Assembly: GCF_000378965.1 (NCBI RefSeq)
Contig: NZ_KB900536.1
Location: 569,583 to 633,582 of the forward strand
From: Thioalkalivibrio thiocyanodenitrificans ARhD 1
Lineage (GTDB): Bacteria > Pseudomonadota > Gammaproteobacteria > Ectothiorhodospirales > Ectothiorhodospiraceae
Reading direction: 5' to 3'
DNA: 64,000 nucleotides
This document shows positions 11,161 through 26,709 of this stretch, in pieces (positions within the stretch are counted from its first letter, which is position 1; every line of letters starts with the position of its first letter). Below the pieces are notes generated by a model. That model was not told the origin of the DNA, ran no database searches, and was given only the letters and a program-made list of their open reading frames with translations. A program made the translations under genes and the position numbers.

Positions 11161-12429
11161 TCATGCAGGCGCCCGGATGGCGGCCGCCCTGGCCAGGATC
11201 CCCTTGTACTCTCTGCCCAGATGCGTCAGCGCCAGCATCCACACCAGACACACGCCCAGCACCAGCCAGCCCAGCTCGGCGGCGCTGATGGTCCAGGGTA
11301 ACCACTGGGTGAGCAGGAGGATGAGCAGCGAGCCCAGCACCTTGAACATGCGGTAGCCGAACATGTCGATCCAGGCCTTGGCGCGGAACATGAGCAGCGG
11401 TTCGATGGGCACGTAGAGCAGTTCCTTTGATGCGCGATTGATGGAATACGACAGGCCCCGGTCGGCGATCTTGAGAAATGCGCCGGCCTGAAGCGTGGCC
11501 TGGGACATGTACCACAGGCTGCCGATCATCACTGCCACGGGTTGTGCGAACAGCCCCGCCATGACGCCGAACCAGCGATGCACCAGCGGGGTGATCAGCA
11601 GGTTGATGCCGATGGCCACCGCGCTCATGACACTGAAGAAGGCGCCCAGGTAGGCGGTGCGCGCGTCCCGCCCGACGATGTTCTCCTCGATCACCTTCAT
11701 GAACTGGTATTCGATCAGCGGTTCGGCCACCTGCGCGAGCAGCAGGATGGCCGCGATGATCAGCAGGTAGCGGTGCTGCAGGATGGCACGCCAGTCGCGC
11801 GATGTGACTTCGCGATGATTTCGCACGCCGGGCCGCTCGTGGTACAGGCCGAGTCTGCCCATGAGCAGGGTCAGGCACACCAGCAGTCCGATGATGCCGG
11901 CCGCCACCAGCAGCAGGTCCATGGTTTCCAGCCCCGTCCGACTGATCAGCAGGCTCGAGGCACTGCCGCCAGCCACGCCACCGGCCAGCCCGCCGGTCGC
12001 GATCAGGCCGTACCAGCGCTTGCCCTCGCTGGTGCTGAAGGTGGTGTTCGTCAGGCTCCAGAACTGTTCGACCATGATCACGCTGAACATGTCCACGAAG
12101 ATGTAGAACGCGAAGGCCTGGACGAATCCGCTGTCGCTGACCAGCGGATAAAACAGGAACAGGACGGCGATGACGATGGCGCAACTGCCGAGCACCACGT
12201 GGAAGCGCGAGAAGCGCGCGATCAGGTGATGGTAGAGCCCGATTGTGATGGCGAGCGCCAGTGCGGTGGCGATCCACACATAGGGCAGATAATCGGCGCC
12301 CAGCGAAGAGATGAAGATGGAGCGGCTCGCCGGCTTGAGGTGATACAGCGCGGCAATGATCAGGAAGAAGTTTGTGAACAGCAGCACACCGCGCAGGAGG
12401 GATGCACTGCGATTATGAGGTTCGATCAT
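11161..12429 (-). CDS. NTP/NDP exchange transporter-like (ATP/ADP carrier family) membrane protein
   Basis: 422 aa from the ATG at 12429 (a TTG at 12483 directly abuts its Shine-Dalgarno and is less likely). About 11-12 hydrophobic helices fill the whole length. The N-terminal GVLLFTNFFLIIAALYHLKPASRS resembles the start of non-mitochondrial ATP/ADP translocases, and the EQFWSLTNTTFS and KELLYVPIEP segments fit the same family. Known members in plastids and intracellular bacteria exchange ATP for ADP or import nucleotides; free-living members are poorly characterised. It is divergent from a secreted hydrolase gene and close to an apparently exported ATP-using protein (14649-17618). An MFS carrier of other specificity is the main alternative. 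Confidence 0.7.
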   Translation of the reverse strand: MIEPHNRSASLLRGVLLFTNFFLIIAALYHLKPASRSIFISSLGADYLPYVWIATALALAITIGLYHHLIARFSRFHVVLGSCAIVIAVLFLFYPLVSDSGFVQAFAFYIFVDMFSVIMVEQFWSLTNTTFSTSEGKRWYGLIATGGLAGGVAGGSASSLLISRTGLETMDLLLVAAGIIGLLVCLTLLMGRLGLYHERPGVRNHREVTSRDWRAILQHRYLLIIAAILLLAQVAEPLIEYQFMKVIEENIVGRDARTAYLGAFFSVMSAVAIGINLLITPLVHRWFGVMAGLFAQPVAVMIGSLWYMSQATLQAGAFLKIADRGLSYSINRASKELLYVPIEPLLMFRAKAWIDMFGYRMFKVLGSLLILLLTQWLPWTISAAELGWLVLGVCLVWMLALTHLGREYKGILARAAAIRAPA

Positions 12430-12518
12430 TGCGTTGCGTTCGCGCTGTGTGGCATGATCGTTGCATTCCCACTTTGAATTCAACTCCTGACGACCGTTGA
12501 CCGGTTACGAGGCGCTTC

Positions 12519-13412
12519 ATGCTGTTCAGACTGCTGCTGGTGACAGGCGTTTCACTGGGACTGCTGATGGCAGTCCATGCCGCGCCTCCGCAACAGACGT
12601 CGCCCCTGCGTGATGCCGTGAACCCCGCCCTCCAGGCGAAACTGGAGGAACGACTCCAGCGCCTGAACCTGGAATCCGCGGTACGCAGCAGGCAACTGGC
12701 CGTGTCCCTGGTCGACATCACCGATCCCGCCAAGCCCCGCCTGGCCCATGTCAACGGACACGACATGATGTATGCGGCCAGCCTGCCGAAGATCGCCATC
12801 CTGCTGGCCGCCTTCGAACGCATCCATGAAGGGAAACTCCCGCTCGATACCGAGAACCGTCGGCTGATGACCGACATGATCCGCCGCTCGTCCAATACGG
12901 CCGCGACCGAGATGATACGGCGGGTCGGGCCGGAGTATATCAACGAGCTGCTCAGATCACCGAAATACCGTCTCTACGACGCGAACATGAACGGCGGACT
13001 CTGGGTCGGCAAGGAGTACGGCCGGGGCGCGGCCTACCAGCGTGATCCGCTGCACAATCTCTCCCATGGCGCCACCGCCTTCCAGGTGGCGCGTTTCTAC
13101 TACATGCTCGAGACCGGACGGCTGGTGTCGCCCGAGCTGTCCCGGGAAATGAAGGGCATGCTTGGCGATCCGGGTATCCGGCACAAGTTCGTTCAGGGCC
13201 TGCTGGCCGGCGCCCCCGAGGCGCGGGTCTACCGCAAGTCCGGCACCTGGCGCGAATGGCATGCCGACAGTGCCATCGTCGAGCACGCCGGGCGCACCTA
13301 CATCGCCGTGGCGCTGGCCCGGAACCCGAACGGCGGTGAATGGTTCACCAATCTCATCGTCGAACTGGACAGGATCATCATGGGGCAGCCGGTTCGGCAT
13401 GCCGGTCTCTGA
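12519..13412 (+). CDS. Exported serine hydrolase, class A beta-lactamase-like fold
   Basis: 297 aa with a signal peptide (FRLLLVTGVSLGLLMAVHA, cleavage near AAP). The three motifs of the penicilloyl-serine transferase fold are present: SLPK at 88-91, SSN at 124-126 (SDN equivalent) and KSG at 240-242 in RKSGTWREWHADS. The omega-loop Glu of true class A lactamases is not evident. It is more likely a periplasmic peptidase or esterase than a resistance enzyme. Its 3' end overlaps by 35 bp the convergent second hydrolase, so the two genes are physically interlocked. Confidence 0.8.
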   Translation: MLFRLLLVTGVSLGLLMAVHAAPPQQTSPLRDAVNPALQAKLEERLQRLNLESAVRSRQLAVSLVDITDPAKPRLAHVNGHDMMYAASLPKIAILLAAFERIHEGKLPLDTENRRLMTDMIRRSSNTAATEMIRRVGPEYINELLRSPKYRLYDANMNGGLWVGKEYGRGAAYQRDPLHNLSHGATAFQVARFYYMLETGRLVSPELSREMKGMLGDPGIRHKFVQGLLAGAPEARVYRKSGTWREWHADSAIVEHAGRTYIAVALARNPNGGEWFTNLIVELDRIIMGQPVRHAGL

Positions 13413-14652
13413 TCAGTGCATGCAGGCGGGTCGCAAAGGTCTGATGCTCGACGGCGGCATTGCGGTACAGCACGTTCGACGTGAGTGCGACCAGGTAGAA
13501 CAGCCGGGGCTCACCCGCCGGTGACTCGATGATGGCCACTGAGTGCATCAGGTTCATCACGTTGCCCTGGTATCTCCTGCACGTGTAACCCTCTTCGGGC
13601 TCGCACCGGTAGAATGACCCGGACTTGAAATAGACCGCGGCGTCATTGAGCGCGGGCGAAGAAGCGTAACGGATACGCCGCTCCGTCATGTACAGCAGCC
13701 GCTTCAGCTCCAGGCTCGACCACTCGTCCACCAGCAGTCCCTGTTCCATGCGTACCAGCATGCGCATCAGCTCGCGCACCGTGCTGACGCTGCCGGAGCC
13801 CGGCACCAGACGCCTGCCCTCGCTGGTAAAGAACGATCCCTGGCGCAGTCGCTCCGTATCCAGCCCGTTGCGTGCCAGCGGCGACACCAGGCTGTCGCGC
13901 AGCAGCTCGCCGCGTTCTCCGACCGGGGTGTCGCGAAACAGGGCCGCTTCGTCATCGGCGGAGACCGGATAGTCCCGGCCGAAACGGCGCAGCAGCATCA
14001 GTTGCCTGATGACCGTGCTGGCGGCCGCATTGGAACTCGCCGACATCATCCAGTCCAGGTAACTCCACAGGTTCGCGGTATCCCCCTCGCGCAGCGGCCG
14101 GCGCGTCATGCGCTGCTGTTCGGGTTCCCAGAGGGGTACCGTGTGGGAATCGTGGCGGATGAAGCGATCGGCCGTGACCTGGGTCTCCCTGAGCAGCCGC
14201 TTGCGGGCGGCTATGTCGTCGGGATGCAGATCAGCCAGGGCCTGCAGCATCGCCACGCCCACCATGACCTTGCCGACGCTGCCGGGAATCAACGCCGCCT
14301 GCCCCCTGTGTTCCGCATACAGCGGCACATCGGGATCGCTGAGGTCGAGCACGCTGACGCTGGTATCGGGTGCCGCATCGCCCAGCAGGCGGGCGATATC
14401 CCTCGCGAGTGCCGAATCGGGTTCGGGGATCTCGAAATCCGGCCGATCACGCAGGCGCAAACGGATCTGACTGCTGCCGAGCAGGGCGCCGGGCAGCAGG
14501 CGGTTACCTGGTATCTGCCCCTGATTGGCGAGCCGGTAGCCTTCCAGCCGGGCGATACCGGTCTCCTCGAAGGCATCGATGGGATAGCCGCCGGCGCCAT
14601 TGAGTGACAGCGCCAGCGCGCCTCCGAGCAGCATGAGGAGCGGGCGTTTCAC
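13378..14652 (-). CDS. Exported serine hydrolase, beta-lactamase-like (second, divergent type)
   Basis: 424 aa with a signal peptide (KRPLLMLLGGALALSLNGAGG). Motifs: SVGK at 125-128, SSN at 206-208 in MSASSNAA, and KSG in YFKSGSFY about 70 residues before the C-terminus. A region of about 100 aa before SxxK (SVLDLSDPDVPLYAEHRG) and the long spacing between motifs separate it from class A enzymes. It starts inside the stop of the upstream dikinase-like gene (ATGA overlap at 14649-14652), so the two are translationally coupled. It is clearly related in fold, not in close sequence, to the neighbouring hydrolase at 12519. The substrate is unknown; cell-wall or D-amino-acid ester substrates are plausible. 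Confidence 0.78.
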   Translation of the reverse strand: MKRPLLMLLGGALALSLNGAGGYPIDAFEETGIARLEGYRLANQGQIPGNRLLPGALLGSSQIRLRLRDRPDFEIPEPDSALARDIARLLGDAAPDTSVSVLDLSDPDVPLYAEHRGQAALIPGSVGKVMVGVAMLQALADLHPDDIAARKRLLRETQVTADRFIRHDSHTVPLWEPEQQRMTRRPLREGDTANLWSYLDWMMSASSNAAASTVIRQLMLLRRFGRDYPVSADDEAALFRDTPVGERGELLRDSLVSPLARNGLDTERLRQGSFFTSEGRRLVPGSGSVSTVRELMRMLVRMEQGLLVDEWSSLELKRLLYMTERRIRYASSPALNDAAVYFKSGSFYRCEPEEGYTCRRYQGNVMNLMHSVAIIESPAGEPRLFYLVALTSNVLYRNAAVEHQTFATRLHALIRDRHAEPAAP

Positions 14653-17618
14653 GGGAGGGCTCGCTCCACGACGATGGACGGTGGCGGTTCACGCAGGTCA
14701 ACCGGTATTCGTTGACGGGCGGTCTCGGGCAGATCCATCCCGATCAGATACTGACTCTGGCGCGCGCGCCGGCTTTCCACGAAGGGCCTGATCTGGAACA
14801 GGGAGAGTCGCCCGTCGCTGAATCCGAACTCGATGTCCGCTGCCACGGGTGTGCCGTCAGGACCGGACGGCATCTCCATGCGCGAAGCCAGGTCGTCGAC
14901 CAGCGCGCGCAGCTGATCGATCTCGTCCGGCGTGAGCACGGTTTCGTGCCCGCTGGCCGGGACCATGCGCATACCGCCGCCCGCCACAGGTTCGGCGCGC
15001 AGCGGCGCACTGGCCTGGGACAGCAGTCGGACTTCGCCGGTGGCGCGATGCACGCGCAGTTCCTCGGCAGCCTGTCCGTCCACGGCGCCGCCAACACCTT
15101 CGCTGGTGGCGATGGACAGCCAGTCCCGGTCTCCCGTGTCCACGTCCGCCGTCACCAGCACCCCGGACTTCTGCGAGGGAAAGGTTTCCAGGAGCAGTAC
15201 CGACGGATAGACATGCTCGGGCTGCGGCATGTGCGCCTGGCGCCAGGCATAGGCGCGGTCACTGAAAGGCGAGGCCCACACCGTGCGAATGGCCCGCACG
15301 ATGGACTCGAAGCCCACGACATTGGGTACGGTGAGGTTCAGGCCGGCGCCGGTGAAGCCGGGCAGATCCTCCACGTTGGTGTCGCTGCGCACGAACACGC
15401 CGGGCGTATCGGCGCTGCCGAAGGTCTCTTCCAGCGCCTCCCGCAGCCGGGCACGGAATGCCTCGCCGGGGTCGGTCGTGACGATCCAATCGCGCAGCAT
15501 TTCAAGCATGACTCGGGTCTCCGCCTCCCGCCGTGCGGGGTCACTGATGGCGTGCAGCCGCGCGTATTCGTCCCGCAGCCAGTCGTAGGCGGCCGGTCCG
15601 TCCGGGACGATGGGCTGATCGAGCATGGCCCGAAACACGCCGAAGGGGATCACAACGCCGGGGTTCACGTGCTGCGGGTAATGGTGCAGGAGTTCTCCCA
15701 GGTTGGCGGCCTTGGGGCCGACACTGCGTCCCGCATCCTCCGCCCGGAGCGCGCCCAGGGGCAGAAGACGGGTGGTGCGCAGGTCGAGCTTGCCGAGATT
15801 CGGGGCAATGACCACCTCCGGGGCGAGCGCCTCCGCGCCGAGGACCTCGTCCCAGTGTGTGCCGTCGGATGCAATGCGCACACCACCGCGCGGGCTGACC
15901 GCCACCACCACCCGGGCACCCAGATGGGCGTCGAGCAACGGGATCAACGCATCGTCGATGACCACGTTGGGAATGCCGAGATTGCGCGCCAGCAGCTGCA
16001 CATGGGACAGGGAACTGCCTTCACCGCGGGTCAGGATGCCGGAGACCGGCGGCAGCTCCGACGTGGTGGAGGGGAGCAGGTAGATGCCGTCCCTGCGAAA
16101 TGCCGCCGGGTCCTCCGGCGCCTCCAGCAGCACGCCCCGGGCCAGCCCCGGGTTGAGCGGCCGCAGACCGCCGGCTACCTCCTGTCCAAACAGTTCCTGC
16201 CGCACCCCGGCAAGCACATGGGCGTCCTGCAGGAGGACGTCGAGCGTACGCGTATAAGGCAGCAACGGGCCGCCGCGCAGGGTGTCCGGGACATAATGGA
16301 CCCCCAGCGGCGTGATGTCGGACCACAGTCTCACGGTGGGCTCGAAGTGAAACTCCAGTGCCCGCTGTGCCCACTGTGACACCCGCGACAGGTAGCGCAT
16401 CCAGGTGAAATAGGCCTCGGCATCCAGGGCGTCGTCCTGCACCAGGCGGTCAATGTGCGCGTCCAGGGCCTGCCATTGCCGCTCCGACAGCAATCCCGCC
16501 GCGAACAGCGACATCCCGAAGCTGCGCAACCAGTTCAGACGGGTCAGGCGATCGGCCCCGGCGGATGCCTCCATGAGCCAGTTGCCCACCGCATAGACCT
16601 CGTGTTCCATGGCCAGGCCGGCCTGAAGGAGCCGCAACCGGTCCGCCGGCGCGAGGGCCGCGTCTTCCTGAAACAGGCCGCGCCACTGCCGCGCGAAACC
16701 GGCCGCCAGGTGGAGCCGTGCCTCCAGATCCGCGGCGTCGTTCAACTCCCCGACAGCATCGGCGATGGCGGCCCGCAGGCGCGACCCGCCGCTCTCCGCC
16801 ATCAGCCGCTCCAGCCGGTCGACGGCGGTCTGCGGCCCGTACAGCGCATCCAGAGCCGCCGCCAGGCTGCGGTAATCATCCACCAGTTCCGGCAGTCCCT
16901 GACGGGCCGCGTGGTTACGTACCCGTTGGGCGTCACCGGCATCCGGCATGCCGTGAAGCTTGATGCGCAGATCCTGAAAGCCGGGATCTTGTGCAGCGAT
17001 CTCCGTGGACAGCCGGCGTACGGTTACCGTGGCCGGTTGCTCGGCGTCGATGGGCAACAGGCGGGCCGCCTCGCGCAGCAAAAGGTAGCGGGCCGGATCG
17101 CGCCAGCCGGGATCGTCCACCATGGCCAGCAGCAGCCTGCGCGCGGAAGCGTACTCGTCCTCCACCTGGATGGCACCGCGATAGTAACGGGCCTGGCGGA
17201 AGACCCAGCCGTCGTCGTTGCGGATCAGGAAGCGTTCCAGCAGGATCTGGCGCAACGCGTCCAGGCGCGCATCGGGGCCGGTAAAGTCCCCGGGTTCCAG
17301 GTCCGCCAGCAGCGTGGCGATCAGATAGCCCTGGTCGCGAATCGCCCGGGTGCGTTCACCCCATTCCCCGTGCTGGACTCCGCCGCCGTGGGGTCGGCAG
17401 GCATAGGGCTCCGGCGGAAGGATGGTGCCATCGGCACAGAACCAGCGGATGCGCCAGAAGGGTCCGCGCGGCGCGGTCTTCATCTCGTCGATCCATTGAC
17501 GCATCTGGGCCGGCTCGGGCGCCGGCGGCACCCCGGTGTCGGCACGCAGGCCGCCGGCCAAAACAAGCAGGCATGCCAGGGCGGGAAACAACAGCAGACT
17601 TGGGCGGGAGACAGGCAT
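14649..17618 (-). CDS. Apparently exported phosphohistidine/ATP-binding (PEP-synthase-like, glucan-water-dikinase order) protein
   Basis: 989 aa from the ATG at 17618, chosen because the residues after it form a signal peptide (SRPSLLLFPALACLLVLAGGLRA). Residues 30-480 are an alpha-helical region I do not recognise. A PEP-utilizer mobile domain follows (about 485-590), with the swivelling histidine H539 in SSLSHVQLLARN. The C-terminal PPDK-type ATP-binding domain (about 630-955) has GPKAANLGELL (K636), VRSDTNVEDLPGFTGAG (R744, E750) and QIRPF near the end. The order His-domain then ATP-domain is that of plant glucan water dikinases and the reverse of PEP synthase. There is no PEP/pyruvate TIM barrel, so pyruvate is not the expected acceptor. 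It is coupled to the hydrolase gene downstream. An ATP-using enzyme behind a signal peptide is unexpected; an N-terminal anchor or a wrong start are alternatives. Confidence 0.75.
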   Translation of the reverse strand: MPVSRPSLLLFPALACLLVLAGGLRADTGVPPAPEPAQMRQWIDEMKTAPRGPFWRIRWFCADGTILPPEPYACRPHGGGVQHGEWGERTRAIRDQGYLIATLLADLEPGDFTGPDARLDALRQILLERFLIRNDDGWVFRQARYYRGAIQVEDEYASARRLLLAMVDDPGWRDPARYLLLREAARLLPIDAEQPATVTVRRLSTEIAAQDPGFQDLRIKLHGMPDAGDAQRVRNHAARQGLPELVDDYRSLAAALDALYGPQTAVDRLERLMAESGGSRLRAAIADAVGELNDAADLEARLHLAAGFARQWRGLFQEDAALAPADRLRLLQAGLAMEHEVYAVGNWLMEASAGADRLTRLNWLRSFGMSLFAAGLLSERQWQALDAHIDRLVQDDALDAEAYFTWMRYLSRVSQWAQRALEFHFEPTVRLWSDITPLGVHYVPDTLRGGPLLPYTRTLDVLLQDAHVLAGVRQELFGQEVAGGLRPLNPGLARGVLLEAPEDPAAFRRDGIYLLPSTTSELPPVSGILTRGEGSSLSHVQLLARNLGIPNVVIDDALIPLLDAHLGARVVVAVSPRGGVRIASDGTHWDEVLGAEALAPEVVIAPNLGKLDLRTTRLLPLGALRAEDAGRSVGPKAANLGELLHHYPQHVNPGVVIPFGVFRAMLDQPIVPDGPAAYDWLRDEYARLHAISDPARREAETRVMLEMLRDWIVTTDPGEAFRARLREALEETFGSADTPGVFVRSDTNVEDLPGFTGAGLNLTVPNVVGFESIVRAIRTVWASPFSDRAYAWRQAHMPQPEHVYPSVLLLETFPSQKSGVLVTADVDTGDRDWLSIATSEGVGGAVDGQAAEELRVHRATGEVRLLSQASAPLRAEPVAGGGMRMVPASGHETVLTPDEIDQLRALVDDLASRMEMPSGPDGTPVAADIEFGFSDGRLSLFQIRPFVESRRARQSQYLIGMDLPETARQRIPVDLREPPPSIVVERALP

Positions 17619-18921: not shown

Positions 18922-19079
18922 GCTGCTCGAGGTTCGAATCCGTCCGGGATGCTGCGTCGCAGCATAACATGCCTCCGCACCCGCTCCTACCCGCACGGCA
19001 GGGGATGCCGCCATTGCCCGGGATGGCTGATACACTCGACGCGATCACAGTCATGGCAGGTCGGTCCAGGAGAATGATG

Positions 19080-19955
19080 ATGCATGTCGCTTTTCGTCCG
19101 GACGGTCTTTCGGATGCGCTTGTACGTACCTGGATCGGGTTCATCCTGTTTGCGTGCCTGGGTGCGGCGCCCCTTGGCGCGGCGGCAGGTGACCCGCGTC
19201 AGGCCCTGGAAGTCCCGGAGCACTATCGCCTTGGCGTAATCCCCTGGCAGAGCCCTTCGAAGCTGGCCGGCATGTTCCTGCCATTGGCGGACGTGCTGGA
19301 ACGGGGCCTGGCCCATCCGGTGCAGTTCGTCACCGCACCGGGATACCGGCAGTTCGTGGAACGCGTGAAGGCCCGGGACTATCACCTGGTCTACCTGAAC
19401 CCCCTGCTGTACCCCCAGGCCCGAGAGGCCGGCTACCGGGTCGTGGCCCGGCTGGCGGGGGACGGGATGAACGGCATCCTGGTCGCCCGCCAGGATCGCG
19501 CCATGCCCTCCTTTGACCAGTCCGTGCGCGAGCGCCGCCTGCGCCTCGCGCTGCCGTCCGAAGAGGCCTATTCGGCGCGGGTGCTGCGCGAGCACCTTGG
19601 CACCATGGGGCTTTCCCTGGACGACTTCGATGTGGAGTACTTCGGTTCCCAGGATTCGGCACTGCTCGCCGTGCACAGCGGCCGGGCGGACATCAGCGGC
19701 ACCTGCCTGCCTTCACTGCGATCCATGCCCGAGGCGGTGCGCAGCGACTTGCAGATCGTAGAGCAGACGCCGCCCCAGGCGGCCATGCTGCTGGCAGTGC
19801 GTGACGATGTGCCCGAGGCCGTGTCCGCCGCACTGGTGGAGATACTGGTGGAACTCCACAATCATGGCGCGGGACAACAGGTGCTCAATGCACTGGGCTT
19901 TTACGAAGGTTTCGCGGTGGCCAGCGAAGCCGATATCGCGCAACGCTCTCGGTAA
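19080..19955 (+). CDS. PhnD-like periplasmic binding protein (phosphate/phosphonate type), probable sensor partner
   Basis: 291 aa from the third of three consecutive ATGs (19074, 19077, 19080); AGGAG at 19068-19072 gives 7 nt spacing to 19080. A signal or anchor segment (WIGFILFACLGAAPLGAAAG) precedes the PhnD-type fold: YRLGVIPWQSPSKLAGMFLPLADVLE, then YLNPLLYPQA and PSEEAYSARVLREHL. No ABC permease or ATPase follows. The stop overlaps the kinase start (TAATG at 19953-19957), so it is most likely the ligand-sensing input for the two-component system rather than a transporter part. The ligand is unknown. Confidence 0.8.
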   Translation: MHVAFRPDGLSDALVRTWIGFILFACLGAAPLGAAAGDPRQALEVPEHYRLGVIPWQSPSKLAGMFLPLADVLERGLAHPVQFVTAPGYRQFVERVKARDYHLVYLNPLLYPQAREAGYRVVARLAGDGMNGILVARQDRAMPSFDQSVRERRLRLALPSEEAYSARVLREHLGTMGLSLDDFDVEYFGSQDSALLAVHSGRADISGTCLPSLRSMPEAVRSDLQIVEQTPPQAAMLLAVRDDVPEAVSAALVEILVELHNHGAGQQVLNALGFYEGFAVASEADIAQRSR

Positions 19956-21394
19956 TGTCTGCAGACAGCGGGACACACCCCGCCGGGAGCGGGGATACCG
20001 ATCCGCGTGTGCCCTTGACGCGCACCCTGCGTTTCCGCCTGATCATGTCGGTGGCGCTGGTGCATGCGCTGCTGATGGGTGTGTTCGTCTGGCATGCCTT
20101 GACCACCGAATCGGAGCGTCTGCGCACGGACACTCAGAATCGCGCCGAGGCCCTGTCGGTGCTGCTGTCGGTGGCCACCACCAACGCGGTGCTCACAGAG
20201 GATCTGGGCTCGCTGGCGGAGGTGATCGACCGGGTCGGCCGGCACCCGGACGTGACCCATGCGCAGATCATCGACCGCCGTGGTTTCGTGCTCGCCGGCA
20301 CCGAGGCGGAGGCGGTGGGCCGGCCCGTGGTCGAAGCCGCGGCGGACGAATTGTCGCGCGAGGACCTCCTGCTGCGGCTGCACCGGGACATCGAGGTCTC
20401 GGGCAATGTGGTGGGCGAGGTATATCTGGAGATGTCCATGGCCCAGATGCACGGGCTCCTGGCGGCACGCAGAAACCAGGCACTGATCTTCATTCTGTTC
20501 GCCATGGGTATCGGCGGCGTGGTGGCCTGGCTGATCTCCCTGCACATCACCCGGGATCTCCATGCCATGAGCGCGGCGGCCAGCCGCGTGGGGCAGGGGG
20601 ACCTGAGCGTGCGGGTGGGTGTCAACGCCCGCGACGAGATCGGTCACCTCGCCGCGGGTTTCAACAGCATGGTCGAATCCCTGGAGGCCCTCTCCGCCGA
20701 GGCCCGTGACGAACACGCCAAACGCATCGAGGCCGAGCGCCTCTCCTACGCAGGCCAACTGGCCGCCCACATGGCCCACGAGATCCGCAATCCCCTGTCC
20801 GCGGTGATCAATTCGGTGAAGCTCCTGGAGCGCGCGGAACTGGCCTCCCGGGACCGCTCGCAGCTGGTGGACATCATCAACGGAGAGACCCAGCGCCTTC
20901 AGCGGATCCTTCAGGGTTTTCTGGACTCGGCCAGGACCCAGGAACTGCGGCTGGAGACGGCGGATGCCTCGAGTCTGGTCGAACAGGTGGTGCACCTGGC
21001 GTGCCGGGATTCGGAGGCGGGCGAGCGGATCCGGGTGCATCTGGATTTTCACCAGCGCCCCTGCCCGGTGGTGCATGATGCCGACCAGTTGCGCCAGGTG
21101 ATCTGGAACCTGGTGCTCAATGCCATCCAGGCCATGCCTGAAGGGGGCCGGCTCACGATCAGCACCGATCCCCGTGGCGAGCGCGTACGGTTCACGGTGC
21201 AGGATACGGGCGAGGGCTTTCCGTGCCACCTGCTTTCGTTCGCCACGGAGCCCTTCTATACCGGGCGCAGGAACGGCATCGGGCTGGGGCTGGTGATCGT
21301 GCAGCGCATCCTCTCGCAGCACGGCACGCGGCTGGAGATCGACAGCCGCGAGGGGCAGGGTACACGCATGAGTTTCGAGCTGGACATGGGATAG
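19955..21394 (+). CDS. Membrane sensor histidine kinase
   Basis: 479 aa. Two transmembrane helices (about 28-48 and 176-197) bracket a periplasmic sensor region. A HAMP domain (about 198-250), HisKA with phospho-acceptor H275 in AAHMAHEIRNPLSAV, and a HATPase domain with NLVLNAIQAMP (N-box), DTGEGF and GIGLGLVIVQ follow. The HisKA type and the partner regulator place it in the NtrB-like group. Translation is coupled to the PhnD-like gene upstream, and the response regulator begins 3 bp after this stop, so the three form one operon. Confidence 0.93.
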   Translation: MSADSGTHPAGSGDTDPRVPLTRTLRFRLIMSVALVHALLMGVFVWHALTTESERLRTDTQNRAEALSVLLSVATTNAVLTEDLGSLAEVIDRVGRHPDVTHAQIIDRRGFVLAGTEAEAVGRPVVEAAADELSREDLLLRLHRDIEVSGNVVGEVYLEMSMAQMHGLLAARRNQALIFILFAMGIGGVVAWLISLHITRDLHAMSAAASRVGQGDLSVRVGVNARDEIGHLAAGFNSMVESLEALSAEARDEHAKRIEAERLSYAGQLAAHMAHEIRNPLSAVINSVKLLERAELASRDRSQLVDIINGETQRLQRILQGFLDSARTQELRLETADASSLVEQVVHLACRDSEAGERIRVHLDFHQRPCPVVHDADQLRQVIWNLVLNAIQAMPEGGRLTISTDPRGERVRFTVQDTGEGFPCHLLSFATEPFYTGRRNGIGLGLVIVQRILSQHGTRLEIDSREGQGTRMSFELDMG

Positions 21395-21397
21395 ACG

Positions 21398-22732
21398 ATG
21401 GCGACGATTATGATCGTGGATGACGAGTTCTCGGTACGGCGCACCCTGGGCATGTACCTGGACCTGGAGGGGTTCCGGATTCTGGAGGCGGCCGATGTGC
21501 CGCAGGCCCGGGAACTGCTTGCCGCCAACCGGGTGGATGTCCTGGTCACCGATATGCGACTGGGTAATGATGCCGGCACCAGCCTGCTGACATTCCTGCG
21601 CGAGCAGGGCAGCGACACGGGCAGCATCGTCATGACCGGCTACGGCTCCATCGAGAGCGCCGTGGAGGCCATGCGTCTCGGGGCCTTCGACTACCTCACC
21701 AAGCCCGTGAATCCGGACGAGCTGGTGCTTCGGGTGCGCAAGCTTCTGGAGCAGCGTTCACTCCGCGAGGAGGTCATGCGGCTGCGTGATCAGCTGGCCG
21801 GCCAGTCGAAACTCGCGCACGTGGTGGCCAGGAGCCAGGCCATGCAAGACATCCTGGGGGTGATCGAGCGCATCCGGCAGCGTGACATTCCCGTGCTCAT
21901 CACCGGCGAAACGGGCACCGGCAAGGAGGTGCTGGCCACCGCACTGCATCAGACCAGCAGCCGTGCCGACAAGGCGTACATCACCGTCAACTGCGCCACG
22001 CTGCCCGAGGATCTGCTGGATTCGGAGCTGTTCGGCCACATGAAGGGCGCATTCACCGGGGCCGTGAGCAACGCCCGTGGCCTGTTTCAGCAGGCCGACG
22101 GCGGCACACTGTTCCTGGACGAGATCGGCGATGTGAGTCCCCGGCTCCAGGCCAAGCTCCTGCGCGTCCTGCAGGAGGGGGAGGTACGCCCCCTGGGCGG
22201 CGAGAGGACCCTCACGGTGGACGTGCGCGTGATCGCCGCGACCAATCGGGACCTGGGTGCCATGGTCTGCGCGGGCGAGTTCAGGGAAGATCTCTTTTTT
22301 CGCCTCAATGTACTGCCGATCCATATTCCGCCCCTGCGCGAACGCCGTGAGGACATTCCCGCGCTGGCGGAAAGTTTCGTGGCACGTGTACGTGCGCAGT
22401 ATGAACGGCCGGAACTGGGCCTCAGCCAGGACGCCATCCGGAAGTTGGCGGCCCATGACTGGCCCGGCAACATCCGTCAGCTTCAGAACGTGATCGAACG
22501 CAGCTTCGCGCTCCATCCGGGGCCCGTGCTTCGCGCGCAGGAGGTGCTCATCACCACCGGGTCCGGCGCGGGCCCGGCGGATGAGCCCGAACACCTGCTG
22601 CCGCTGGCCCAGGTGGAGCGGCGCCACATCCGCCGCGTCCTGGCCGCGCACAACGGCAACCAGGTGGCGTCGGCCCGCGTTCTGGGCATCGGACGCTCCA
22701 CGTTGCGGCGCAAGCTGGAAGAGGATGGGTGA
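21398..22732 (+). CDS. NtrC-family sigma-54-dependent response regulator
   Basis: 444 aa. Receiver domain with phospho-acceptor D52 (VTDMRLG) and KP at 102-103. AAA+ domain with Walker A GETGTGKE at 170-177, the sigma-54 contact loop GAFTGA at 217-222, and Walker [11 protein letters not shown]. The C-terminal Fis-type HTH (about 405-443) ends [20 protein letters not shown]. It would activate sigma-54 promoters when phosphorylated by the kinase encoded immediately upstream. No clear -24/-12 element was found within the window to name a target. Confidence 0.95.
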
Positions 22733-22903
22733 TTCAATCTGATACATGGCAGTCCCGTTTTGAGACATTCCGCTCCAGGGTCACGCACTCAAGTCACTGA
22801 ATCCACGGGCAGACTCCGGATGGCATCAACATTGCTCCTTCGCCGGTGCGGGCCGCAAGAGGCTTGCGTGGAAACAGCCATCAATGACCGGAGGAATACC
22901 CGA

Positions 22904-23425
22904 ATGTCCCTGACAAAGTCACTCATGCTCGCCTGCCTGCTGATCCTGCCCGTGTCCGCCTTTGCGGATCAGGCACCCTCGCCGTACGGCAAGGCCAAGA
23001 CCAACATGCACGAGTACGCGAAGATCGATACGGTGTTCGACGTGAACTACGAGGATCCGAACCAGCTAAACACCCTGTACTTCTTCGTGCGCAACACCTC
23101 GCGGGCACTGGGCGGCAAGGTCGTGGTGGTGACGCACGGACCGGAACTGCGCGCCTTCGCCCGTGAGAACTATGACAGGTACCAGGGTGTCATGGATCGC
23201 ATGGCAGAGCTGGCCAAGGAAGGCGTGGAATTCCGCATGTGCAACAATGCCATGAAGGCGGCCGGATTCGAGGCCGAGGACATGCACGGGTTCGTCACCA
23301 TCGTGCCCGCCGGATTCCCGGAGGTCGCGGCCCTTCAGGCCCAGGGCTACCAGTATGTCAACCCGCTGCCGCTGCCGGTACGCGACGTACGCTACCTGGA
23401 GCGTCCGGAACTGAAGAAGCAGTAA
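22904..23425 (+). CDS. Periplasmic DsrE/DsrF-like protein (paralog 1)
   Basis: 173 aa from the ATG at 22904 with GAGG 11 bp before it. Signal peptide SLMLACLLILPVSAFA, cleaved before DQ. The DsrE-like core includes NTLYFFVRNTSRALGGKVVVVTHGPELRAFAREN and RMCNNAMKAAGF, with a single conserved-looking Cys113 in the position where DsrE/TusD proteins carry the sulfur-binding Cys. Export is unlike cytoplasmic DsrE but known in this family. A strong terminator follows. The persulfide-handling role is inferred from the family. Confidence 0.85.
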   Translation: MSLTKSLMLACLLILPVSAFADQAPSPYGKAKTNMHEYAKIDTVFDVNYEDPNQLNTLYFFVRNTSRALGGKVVVVTHGPELRAFARENYDRYQGVMDRMAELAKEGVEFRMCNNAMKAAGFEAEDMHGFVTIVPAGFPEVAALQAQGYQYVNPLPLPVRDVRYLERPELKKQ

Positions 23426-23466
23426 TCGTCAGGCCCGGGGCACAGGCGCCCGGCCGAGCGGCAACG

Positions 23467-23491
23467 CGGCCCCGGTTCCCGGGGCCGTTTT
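23467..23491 (+). terminator. Rho-independent terminator
   Basis: A perfect 9-bp stem CGGCCCCGG / CCGGGGCCG with a 3-nt loop, followed by TTTT. It lies 42 bp after the first DsrE-like gene. Confidence 0.88.
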
Positions 23492-23581
23492 CATTGCACC
23501 GATCGGACGCCGCGATCGGCGGCGCGCTAATCTCGTCCGGTCCGGATTTACATCGGTCCTGTCAAAAACGGAGGATATGTC

Positions 23582-24058
23582 ATGTACAGCAAACTGAACC
23601 GGATACTCATCGTGCTGACTGCCATGCTGCTCCCGGTCCAGATCCATGCCGGCGAGGCCCCCTGGGGCCGCGCAGCGGAGATGGCGTCCGAGTATGCCGA
23701 ACAGAAGGTCGTCTATGACCTGTTCGGCGCCGCGGAGGCGGTGGAGAGCGCGCTGGACCGGGCCAGCTTCCTGAGCATGCTCAATGACGCCGATCCCTTC
23801 GATCACAAGATCGTGGTGGTCATACACGGCGATGCCATACCGCATTTCGCCGTGGCGCATTACCCTGACAACAGGGAGCTCATGATCCGGGCACAGAGCC
23901 TGTCCGTGGGGGACATCGTGGAATACCGGTTGTGCGGGGCCGCTGCCCGGATGCGCGGGTTCGAGGCGTCGGATTTTCACGGGTTCGTGAAGGTGGTGCC
24001 CATGGCGGACGCCGAGATCGTGAAGTTGCAGCAGCAGGGATTTGCGTACATGCAGTGA
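23582..24058 (+). CDS. Periplasmic DsrE/DsrF-like protein (paralog 2)
   Basis: 158 aa with a signal peptide (RILIVLTAMLLPVQIHA). The core is FDHKIVVVIHGDAIPHFAVAHY followed by YRLCGAAARMRGFEASDFHGFVKVVP, with Cys118 equivalent to Cys113 of paralog 1. GGAGG precedes the ATG. It has its own upstream region after the terminator. A truncated near-identical copy of its last 369 bp sits at 28737-29105. Probable role: sulfur-carrier-like protein of the periplasm; partner unknown. Confidence 0.85.
   Translation: MYSKLNRILIVLTAMLLPVQIHAGEAPWGRAAEMASEYAEQKVVYDLFGAAEAVESALDRASFLSMLNDADPFDHKIVVVIHGDAIPHFAVAHYPDNRELMIRAQSLSVGDIVEYRLCGAAARMRGFEASDFHGFVKVVPMADAEIVKLQQQGFAYMQ

Positions 24059-24146: not shown

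Positions 24147-26709
<2,563 letters not shown>

Follow-up and report, generated by a model that had tools for sequence, protein, structure and literature searches.

A conserved four-gene module encoding a putatively exported dikinase-like protein, two serine hydrolases and an NTT-type carrier

Genes and features of the locus

The window analysed here is a stretch of 64,000 nucleotides from Thioalkalivibrio thiocyanodenitrificans ARhD 1 (contig NZ_KB900536.1, positions 569,583 to 633,582). Four neighbouring genes had been singled out in the original prediction, and all four open reading frames were found where it had placed them. The genes, designated DIK, SH1, SH2 and CAR, and their features are as follows, with the basis of each assignment in brackets.

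11161..12429, minus strand: CAR, putative membrane carrier of the NTT/TLC superfamily, divergent from SH2 (Pfam PF03219, PDB profile matches)
12519..13412, plus strand: SH2, putatively exported serine hydrolase of the Beta-lactamase2 family (Pfam, motifs, signal-like N-terminus)
13378..14652, minus strand: SH1, putatively exported serine hydrolase of the Beta-lactamase2 family (Pfam, motifs, signal-like N-terminus)
14649..17618, minus strand: DIK, putatively exported dikinase-like protein of 989 aa (ORF, Pfam, structure model, homologue alignment)
14757..15725, minus strand: ATP-grasp (PPDK_N) domain of DIK, residues 632-954 (Pfam, structural match, conserved residues)
15813..16193, minus strand: phosphohistidine (swivel) domain of DIK with H539, residues ~476-602 (Pfam PF00391, Enzyme I structural match)
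16209..17513, minus strand: N-terminal domain of DIK, predicted to be mostly helical, residues ~36-470, no Pfam match (model and alignment)
17541..17618, minus strand: signal-like N-terminus of DIK, residues ~1-26 (heuristic rule, 40/43 homologues)

The gene overlaps that had been described were also present. The start codon of SH1 is a GTG within the stop codon of DIK, giving an overlap of 4 bases, and the same overlap was found in just under half of the DIK–SH1 pairs that were measured. SH2 is convergent with SH1 and overlaps it by 35 bp in the window. Inspection of the ORF list by eye showed, near DIK on the plus strand, genes for a histidine kinase and a response regulator of the sigma-54 type that come after one for a PhnD-like periplasmic binding protein (18969-22732), and two similar small exported neighbours that look like DsrE-type sulfur proteins (22760-24058, plus strand). 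A RuBisCO large-subunit gene at 25714-26637 on the plus strand (G000:C1:595296-596219) is one of two in the source genome.

Domains, active-site residues and predicted export of DIK

A Pfam search showed that DIK matches PEP-utilizers over residues 514-553 (24.4 bits; cut-off 23.1) and then PPDK_N over residues 632-954 (106.6 bits; cut-off 27), and PF00391 was found in all of the 12 aligned DIK members. Unlike PEP synthase/PPDK, DIK has no Pfam match to the C-terminal pyruvate/PEP barrel domain, and the protein ends after PPDK_N. These results confirm the predicted layout of a phosphohistidine domain placed before a C-terminal PPDK-type ATP domain, without a barrel. An AlphaFold model of DIK was obtained from 12 sequences (mean pLDDT 79); in it, a mostly helical N-terminal part, reaching to about residue 470, precedes a swivel domain and then an ATP-grasp domain. 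The proposed structural comparison with PEP synthase gave a match for the C-terminal domain: the modelled ATP-grasp domain superposes on rifampin phosphotransferase (RPH) and PEP synthase with a Z-score of about 31 and an rmsd of 2.5 Å over about 300 residues. For residues 476-602 of the model, a structural match was obtained with the Enzyme I N-terminal domain (1zym; Z 9.8). The best solved relatives by sequence are PEP synthases and RPH, over the ATP-grasp part.

In RPH, the first phosphoryl transfer requires K22, R117 and T136, and the phosphate is carried on H825 (PMC4844700). By alignment, the counterparts in DIK are R744 for R117 and T763 for T136; K636 is assigned to K22 by family motif, and H539 corresponds to H825. 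H539 is located in GEGSSLSHVQLLARN and is conserved in 57 of 58 DIK homologues; K636, R744, T763 and H539 are each kept in about 98% of 58-60 homologues, and the conserved residues of the ATP-grasp domain also include E930, Q942 and R944. Since the residues essential in RPH are conserved in DIK, its first half-reaction is predicted, very likely correctly, to be intact. At position 810, on an ATP-grasp strand, RPH has Gln whereas DIK has Leu (L810) and its family mostly Leu or Met, suggesting that the nucleotide may not be ATP.

The N-terminal helical domain of about 440 residues had no Pfam match in any of the 12 members. It contains the most striking conservation outside the catalytic domains, the motif WFC.DG..PP...C..GGG.QHG, in which C61 is invariant and C74 is present in 55 of 56 homologues. 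The acceptor site of DIK is presumably located in this domain.

The ATP-grasp and phosphohistidine domains of DIK are homologous to those of RPH and PEP synthase/PPDK, and a swivelling mechanism would be expected. However, RPH has its ATP domain first and its His domain at the C-terminus (PMC4844700), whereas the order in DIK is reversed and the rifampin domain was not detected. DIK further differs from RPH and PEP synthase/PPDK in its predicted export, in having its own N-terminal domain and in being encoded together with hydrolases and an NTT-type carrier. In the glucan water dikinases GWD and PWD, a phosphohistidine domain is followed by a C-terminal nucleotide domain, and the Pfam order in DIK agrees with the GWD-type order that had been claimed. 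Compared with GWD, DIK is bacterial and putatively exported and gives no sign of a starch-like acceptor; no Pfam carbohydrate-binding match, such as the starch-binding modules CBM45 or CBM20, was found in the 12 DIK members. On sequence grounds, DIK is classed by definition as a PPDK-superfamily phosphotransferase, yet not as a PEP synthase/PPDK, an RPH or a GWD. A second, shorter protein of the PPDK/PEP synthase/RPH family is encoded elsewhere in the source genome (33% identity over residues 706-952), so DIK is not the sole member in the cell.

A home-made rule recognized signal-like N-termini in 40 of 43 DIK, 35 of 37 SH1 and 25 of 29 SH2 sequences, but the rule is permissive: with free choice of the start codon, it accepts 69 of 163 other neighbours of soluble type as well. 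The argument for export therefore rests on the family-wide pattern and the conserved cysteines. DIK homologues of 39-68% identity have an N-terminal hydrophobic segment after basic residues, mostly followed by an A-x-A-like site, and this segment is kept though its own sequence varies. Cysteine pairs are invariant or nearly so in DIK (C61/C74) and SH1 (C350/C358); such conserved pairs are common in exported proteins. Taken together, these features strongly suggest that DIK, SH1 and SH2 are exported, in support of the exported dikinase envisaged by the original prediction.

The hydrolases, the carrier and conservation of the gene set

Both SH1 and SH2 match Beta-lactamase2 in Pfam. The motifs are S125xxK128, SSN206-208 and KSG343-345 in SH1, in which C350 and C358 are invariant, and S88xxK91, SSN124-126 and KSG240-242 in SH2. 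The SxxK, SxN and K[ST]G motifs are nearly invariant among 52 SH1 and 47 SH2 sequences, and SH1 and SH2 have SxxK, SxN and KSG in common with proteins of the class A beta-lactamase/DD-peptidase kind. However, both are far below the curated class A beta-lactamase cut-off (model NF033103, 200 bits), SH2 scoring 11.2 bits and SH1 giving no match. Sequence relatives of SH1 and SH2 were not found among solved structures.

CAR matches PF03219 (TLC) with 58.8 bits (cut-off 21), and the only PDB matches of its profile are plant NTT1 (best E 6e-10) and Npt1 (best E 3e-7), bearing out the assignment to the ATP/ADP-carrier (NTT/TLC) family. The match to the NTP/NDP exchanger model TIGR00769 is weak, at 35.4 bits a tenth of the cut-off of 387.2. 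The stretches EGKRWY and KELLYVP...AKAWID of CAR align with NTT motifs (KE..Y.P...AKAWID in NTT1 and Npt1), Glu and Lys of both transporters are matched in the alignment by E240 and K351, and many charged residues are invariant among CAR homologues. The predicted model of CAR was too poor to use (pLDDT 52). CAR is thus placed by profile and motif matches in the NTT/TLC superfamily, remote from all characterised members, and ATP transport by it is plausible. According to the survey by Major et al. (PMC5381601), NTT experiments extend to a small part of the family diversity, members differ in substrate (NAD included), and Simkania NTT4 failed in heterologous transport assays; for free-living bacteria, the function of NTTs and of NTT-HEAT(-cNBD) fusions is given as unknown. 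CAR and the larger carriers neighbouring DIK at some loci belong to the same superfamily as these transporters, and linkage to an exported dikinase is a context unmentioned in the parts of that survey covered here. Elsewhere in the source genome, beyond the window (G000:C1:291941-293134), lies the gene of a second TLC-family carrier, a remote one with 27% identity. Each of the four proteins represents a new subfamily within a known superfamily.

DIK was present in only two of the 47 genomes of the window's own order, both from its genus. Among 369 gammaproteobacterial genomes, DIK was found in 34 and SH2 in 36, with both in 33 (Fisher p 2e-42), and close CAR homologues occurred in 28 of the 34 DIK genomes and in one other genome (Fisher p 4e-35); with these values, the arrangement lies far beyond chance. 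In the remaining six DIK genomes the TLC-family protein is a remote one, and several of these lie next to SH2, so that a TLC-family match is present in 34/34 DIK genomes versus 58/335 others. SH2 occurred without detected DIK in three genomes (G308, G084 and G250). In G308 a DIK fragment at the contig end is followed by SH1 and SH2, and in G084 an SH1 fragment at the contig end is followed by CAR and SH2; as truncation at the contig edge explains both cases, only G250 remains, and its SH2 matches are weak. The partners co-occur even if unlinked: in G112, for example, all are retained, with DIK on one contig and SH2-CAR on another. The co-occurrence of the four families, which had been put forward as a check on the original prediction, is thus very strong.

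Gene order was read at the 55 DIK loci where 4.5 kb or more of downstream sequence was present. SH1 was present in 51, SH2 in 46 and an NTT-type carrier in 38, with all three in 36. When flanking genes were clustered, the four families alone exceeded five loci. Some loci carry a second, larger NTT-type carrier, and at some gammaproteobacterial loci, L112 among them, an NTT-HEAT protein adjoins CAR. The pairwise identities are correlated between the four families (Spearman 0.58-0.73), and relatedness of the species may by itself account for this. Named hosts of DIK include Thioalkalivibrio, Halothiobacillus, Guyparkeria and Mariprofundus.

Beyond Gammaproteobacteria, DIK was found in twenty genomes of one zetaproteobacterial genus fitting Mariprofundus. 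DIK-SH1-SH2 is constant in the eight loci of these genomes that were read, and SH2 is often duplicated; the duplicates surround the module at L100, L105, L106 and L107, and in two cases CAR is flanked on both sides. A close CAR homologue is present in five of nine zetaproteobacterial genomes, and in the other four all that was found is a distant TLC protein encoded at another place in the genome. The strict form of the original prediction has against it that several Zetaproteobacteria retain DIK-SH1-SH2 with neither a linked carrier nor a close CAR. In the phylum of a 'deltaproteobacterial' MAG, DIK matches were found in 13 of 189 genomes, and the carriers linked to DIK in this second phylum are often NTT-HEAT-cNBD fusions. 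Single-domain, HEAT and HEAT-cNBD forms are thus all linked to DIK across two phyla, and the replacement of one subtype by another at the same place implies that the carrier function is part of the module. These results show computationally that the four genes constitute a conserved module in bacteria of at least two phyla.

The DIK family is wider than the module, since a distant homologue in G633 (27% identity; L111 6950-9865) stands without SH1, SH2 or CAR, and the distant DIKs of G469 and G491 retain SH1. The G633 protein, which has no Pfam match, is possibly a degenerate or divergent branch. In G491 (L109 10775-14395), a Na+/phosphate cotransporter with a PhoU domain lies beside the NTT-type carrier that adjoins DIK. 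In G219, a second relative of DIK, longer at 1411 aa and with 34% identity (L066 4713-8948), is encoded near a TIR-domain gene.

Proposed mechanism and alternative readings

The conserved catalytic residues and family memberships of the module were established by computation on the encoded proteins. We propose, with about as much reason for as against, that the four proteins form one functional module, in which exported DIK phosphorylates an envelope acceptor via phospho-H539, with SH1 and SH2 as partners and an NTT-type carrier supplying the nucleotide. Through the ATP-grasp domain of DIK, H539 would receive a phosphoryl group from an NTP, most likely the beta-phosphate of ATP. The mobile domain would then deliver this group to an acceptor that the helical N-terminal domain binds. 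Such an acceptor would lie in the envelope and most likely be peptidoglycan or another glycan component, because SH1 and SH2 are putatively exported SxxK hydrolases of the DD-peptidase/beta-lactamase kind; these two may act on the substrate of DIK or on a neighbouring one. The NTT-type carrier would be the best candidate to bring ATP out and AMP/ADP back. What SH1 and SH2 do, which nucleotide is used, which way it is transported and what the acceptor is are all inferred, the last two being the weakest links. The fully specified version, in which ATP is exported for AMP/ADP and the exported dikinase phosphorylates a wall or glycan component handled by the two SxxK hydrolases, is offered only tentatively.

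The module reading is supported by the intact active-site residues, the domain order, the structure matches, the signal-like N-termini, the cysteine pairs and the co-occurrence, as well as by linkage conserved in a second phylum where the carrier is of another subtype and by NTT-HEAT-cNBD fusions adjoining DIK. Counting against it are the score of CAR far below the NTP/NDP exchanger threshold, the finding that not every tested NTT moves nucleotides (reported in PMC5381601), the four of nine Zetaproteobacteria without a close CAR, the Leu/Met at position 810 of DIK and the permissive signal rule.

Several of the same points bear on the alternatives. With the same exported dikinase and hydrolases, the NTT-type carrier could move a cargo other than ATP, such as a product (a phosphorylated sugar, a muropeptide or a nucleotide-like compound) or AMP for salvage, the donor of DIK being otherwise obtained or different. 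We consider this somewhat unlikely. The remoteness of CAR from characterised NTTs, the persistence of the core genes without a linked CAR in Zetaproteobacteria, the variation at L810 near the nucleotide and the range of NTT substrates, NAD included (PMC5381601), would all be consistent with it, but the linkage of several NTT subtypes to DIK in two phyla fits a nucleotide theme, and the charged residues and the KE..Y.P...AKAWID motif of CAR align with NTT1 and Npt1.

The chemistry of DIK could also be ligase-like, with a phosphorylated intermediate used to join or activate an acceptor, as in the prodigiosin ligase PigC/RedH, which has the same ATP and phosphohistidine domains. The NCBIfam PigC and RedH models do match DIK (E 4e-14 and 8e-18), and its N-terminal domain, having no Pfam match, leaves room for other chemistry. 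However, these matches are confined to the shared ATP-grasp domain and score below the best PEP synthase and RPH models, and export would separate DIK from cytoplasmic acceptors, making such a reaction improbable. It is even harder to credit that the genes form an antibiotic inactivation or resistance set, with DIK phosphorylating and the beta-lactamase-family proteins hydrolysing periplasmic antibiotics. Although RPH is, by structure, the closest solved relative of DIK and both hydrolases are Beta-lactamase2 members, a rifampin-binding domain was not detected in DIK, the domain order differs from that of RPH and SH2 is far below the class A cut-off. DIK and SH2 had no match on 72,556 plasmids, PADLOC gave no match, and a chromosomal module kept across two phyla is unlike a mobile resistance set. 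On the plasmid and PADLOC results, plasmid-borne spread and a defence role were also rejected.

The bacterial periplasm is generally taken as ATP-free, and the periplasmic phosphorylations known to date rely on lipid donors. A dikinase of the ATP-grasp type that is exported and conserved alongside NTT-type carriers would break this rule, and the four-gene set could mean ATP-driven envelope modification from outside the cytoplasm. If the ATP-supply reading is right, this would be a new kind of system and would provide a testable role for NTTs, NTT-HEAT(-cNBD) fusions included, in free-living bacteria; ATP export would be a role opposite to energy parasitism. A search of the open-licence literature found no description of an exported dikinase or of the four-gene combination.

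Two wider associations were rejected. Osmoregulated periplasmic glucans were discarded as the general acceptor, since MdoG/OpgG is about as frequent among DIK gammaproteobacteria (only 8 of 34) as among comparison genomes (9 of 36) and was found in none of 5 Zetaproteobacteria. A tie to autotrophy did not hold as a rule: strong RuBisCO matches showed a lean only, being found in about 24 of 34 DIK gammaproteobacteria, 5 of 5 Zetaproteobacteria and about 13 of 36 hand-picked comparison genomes.
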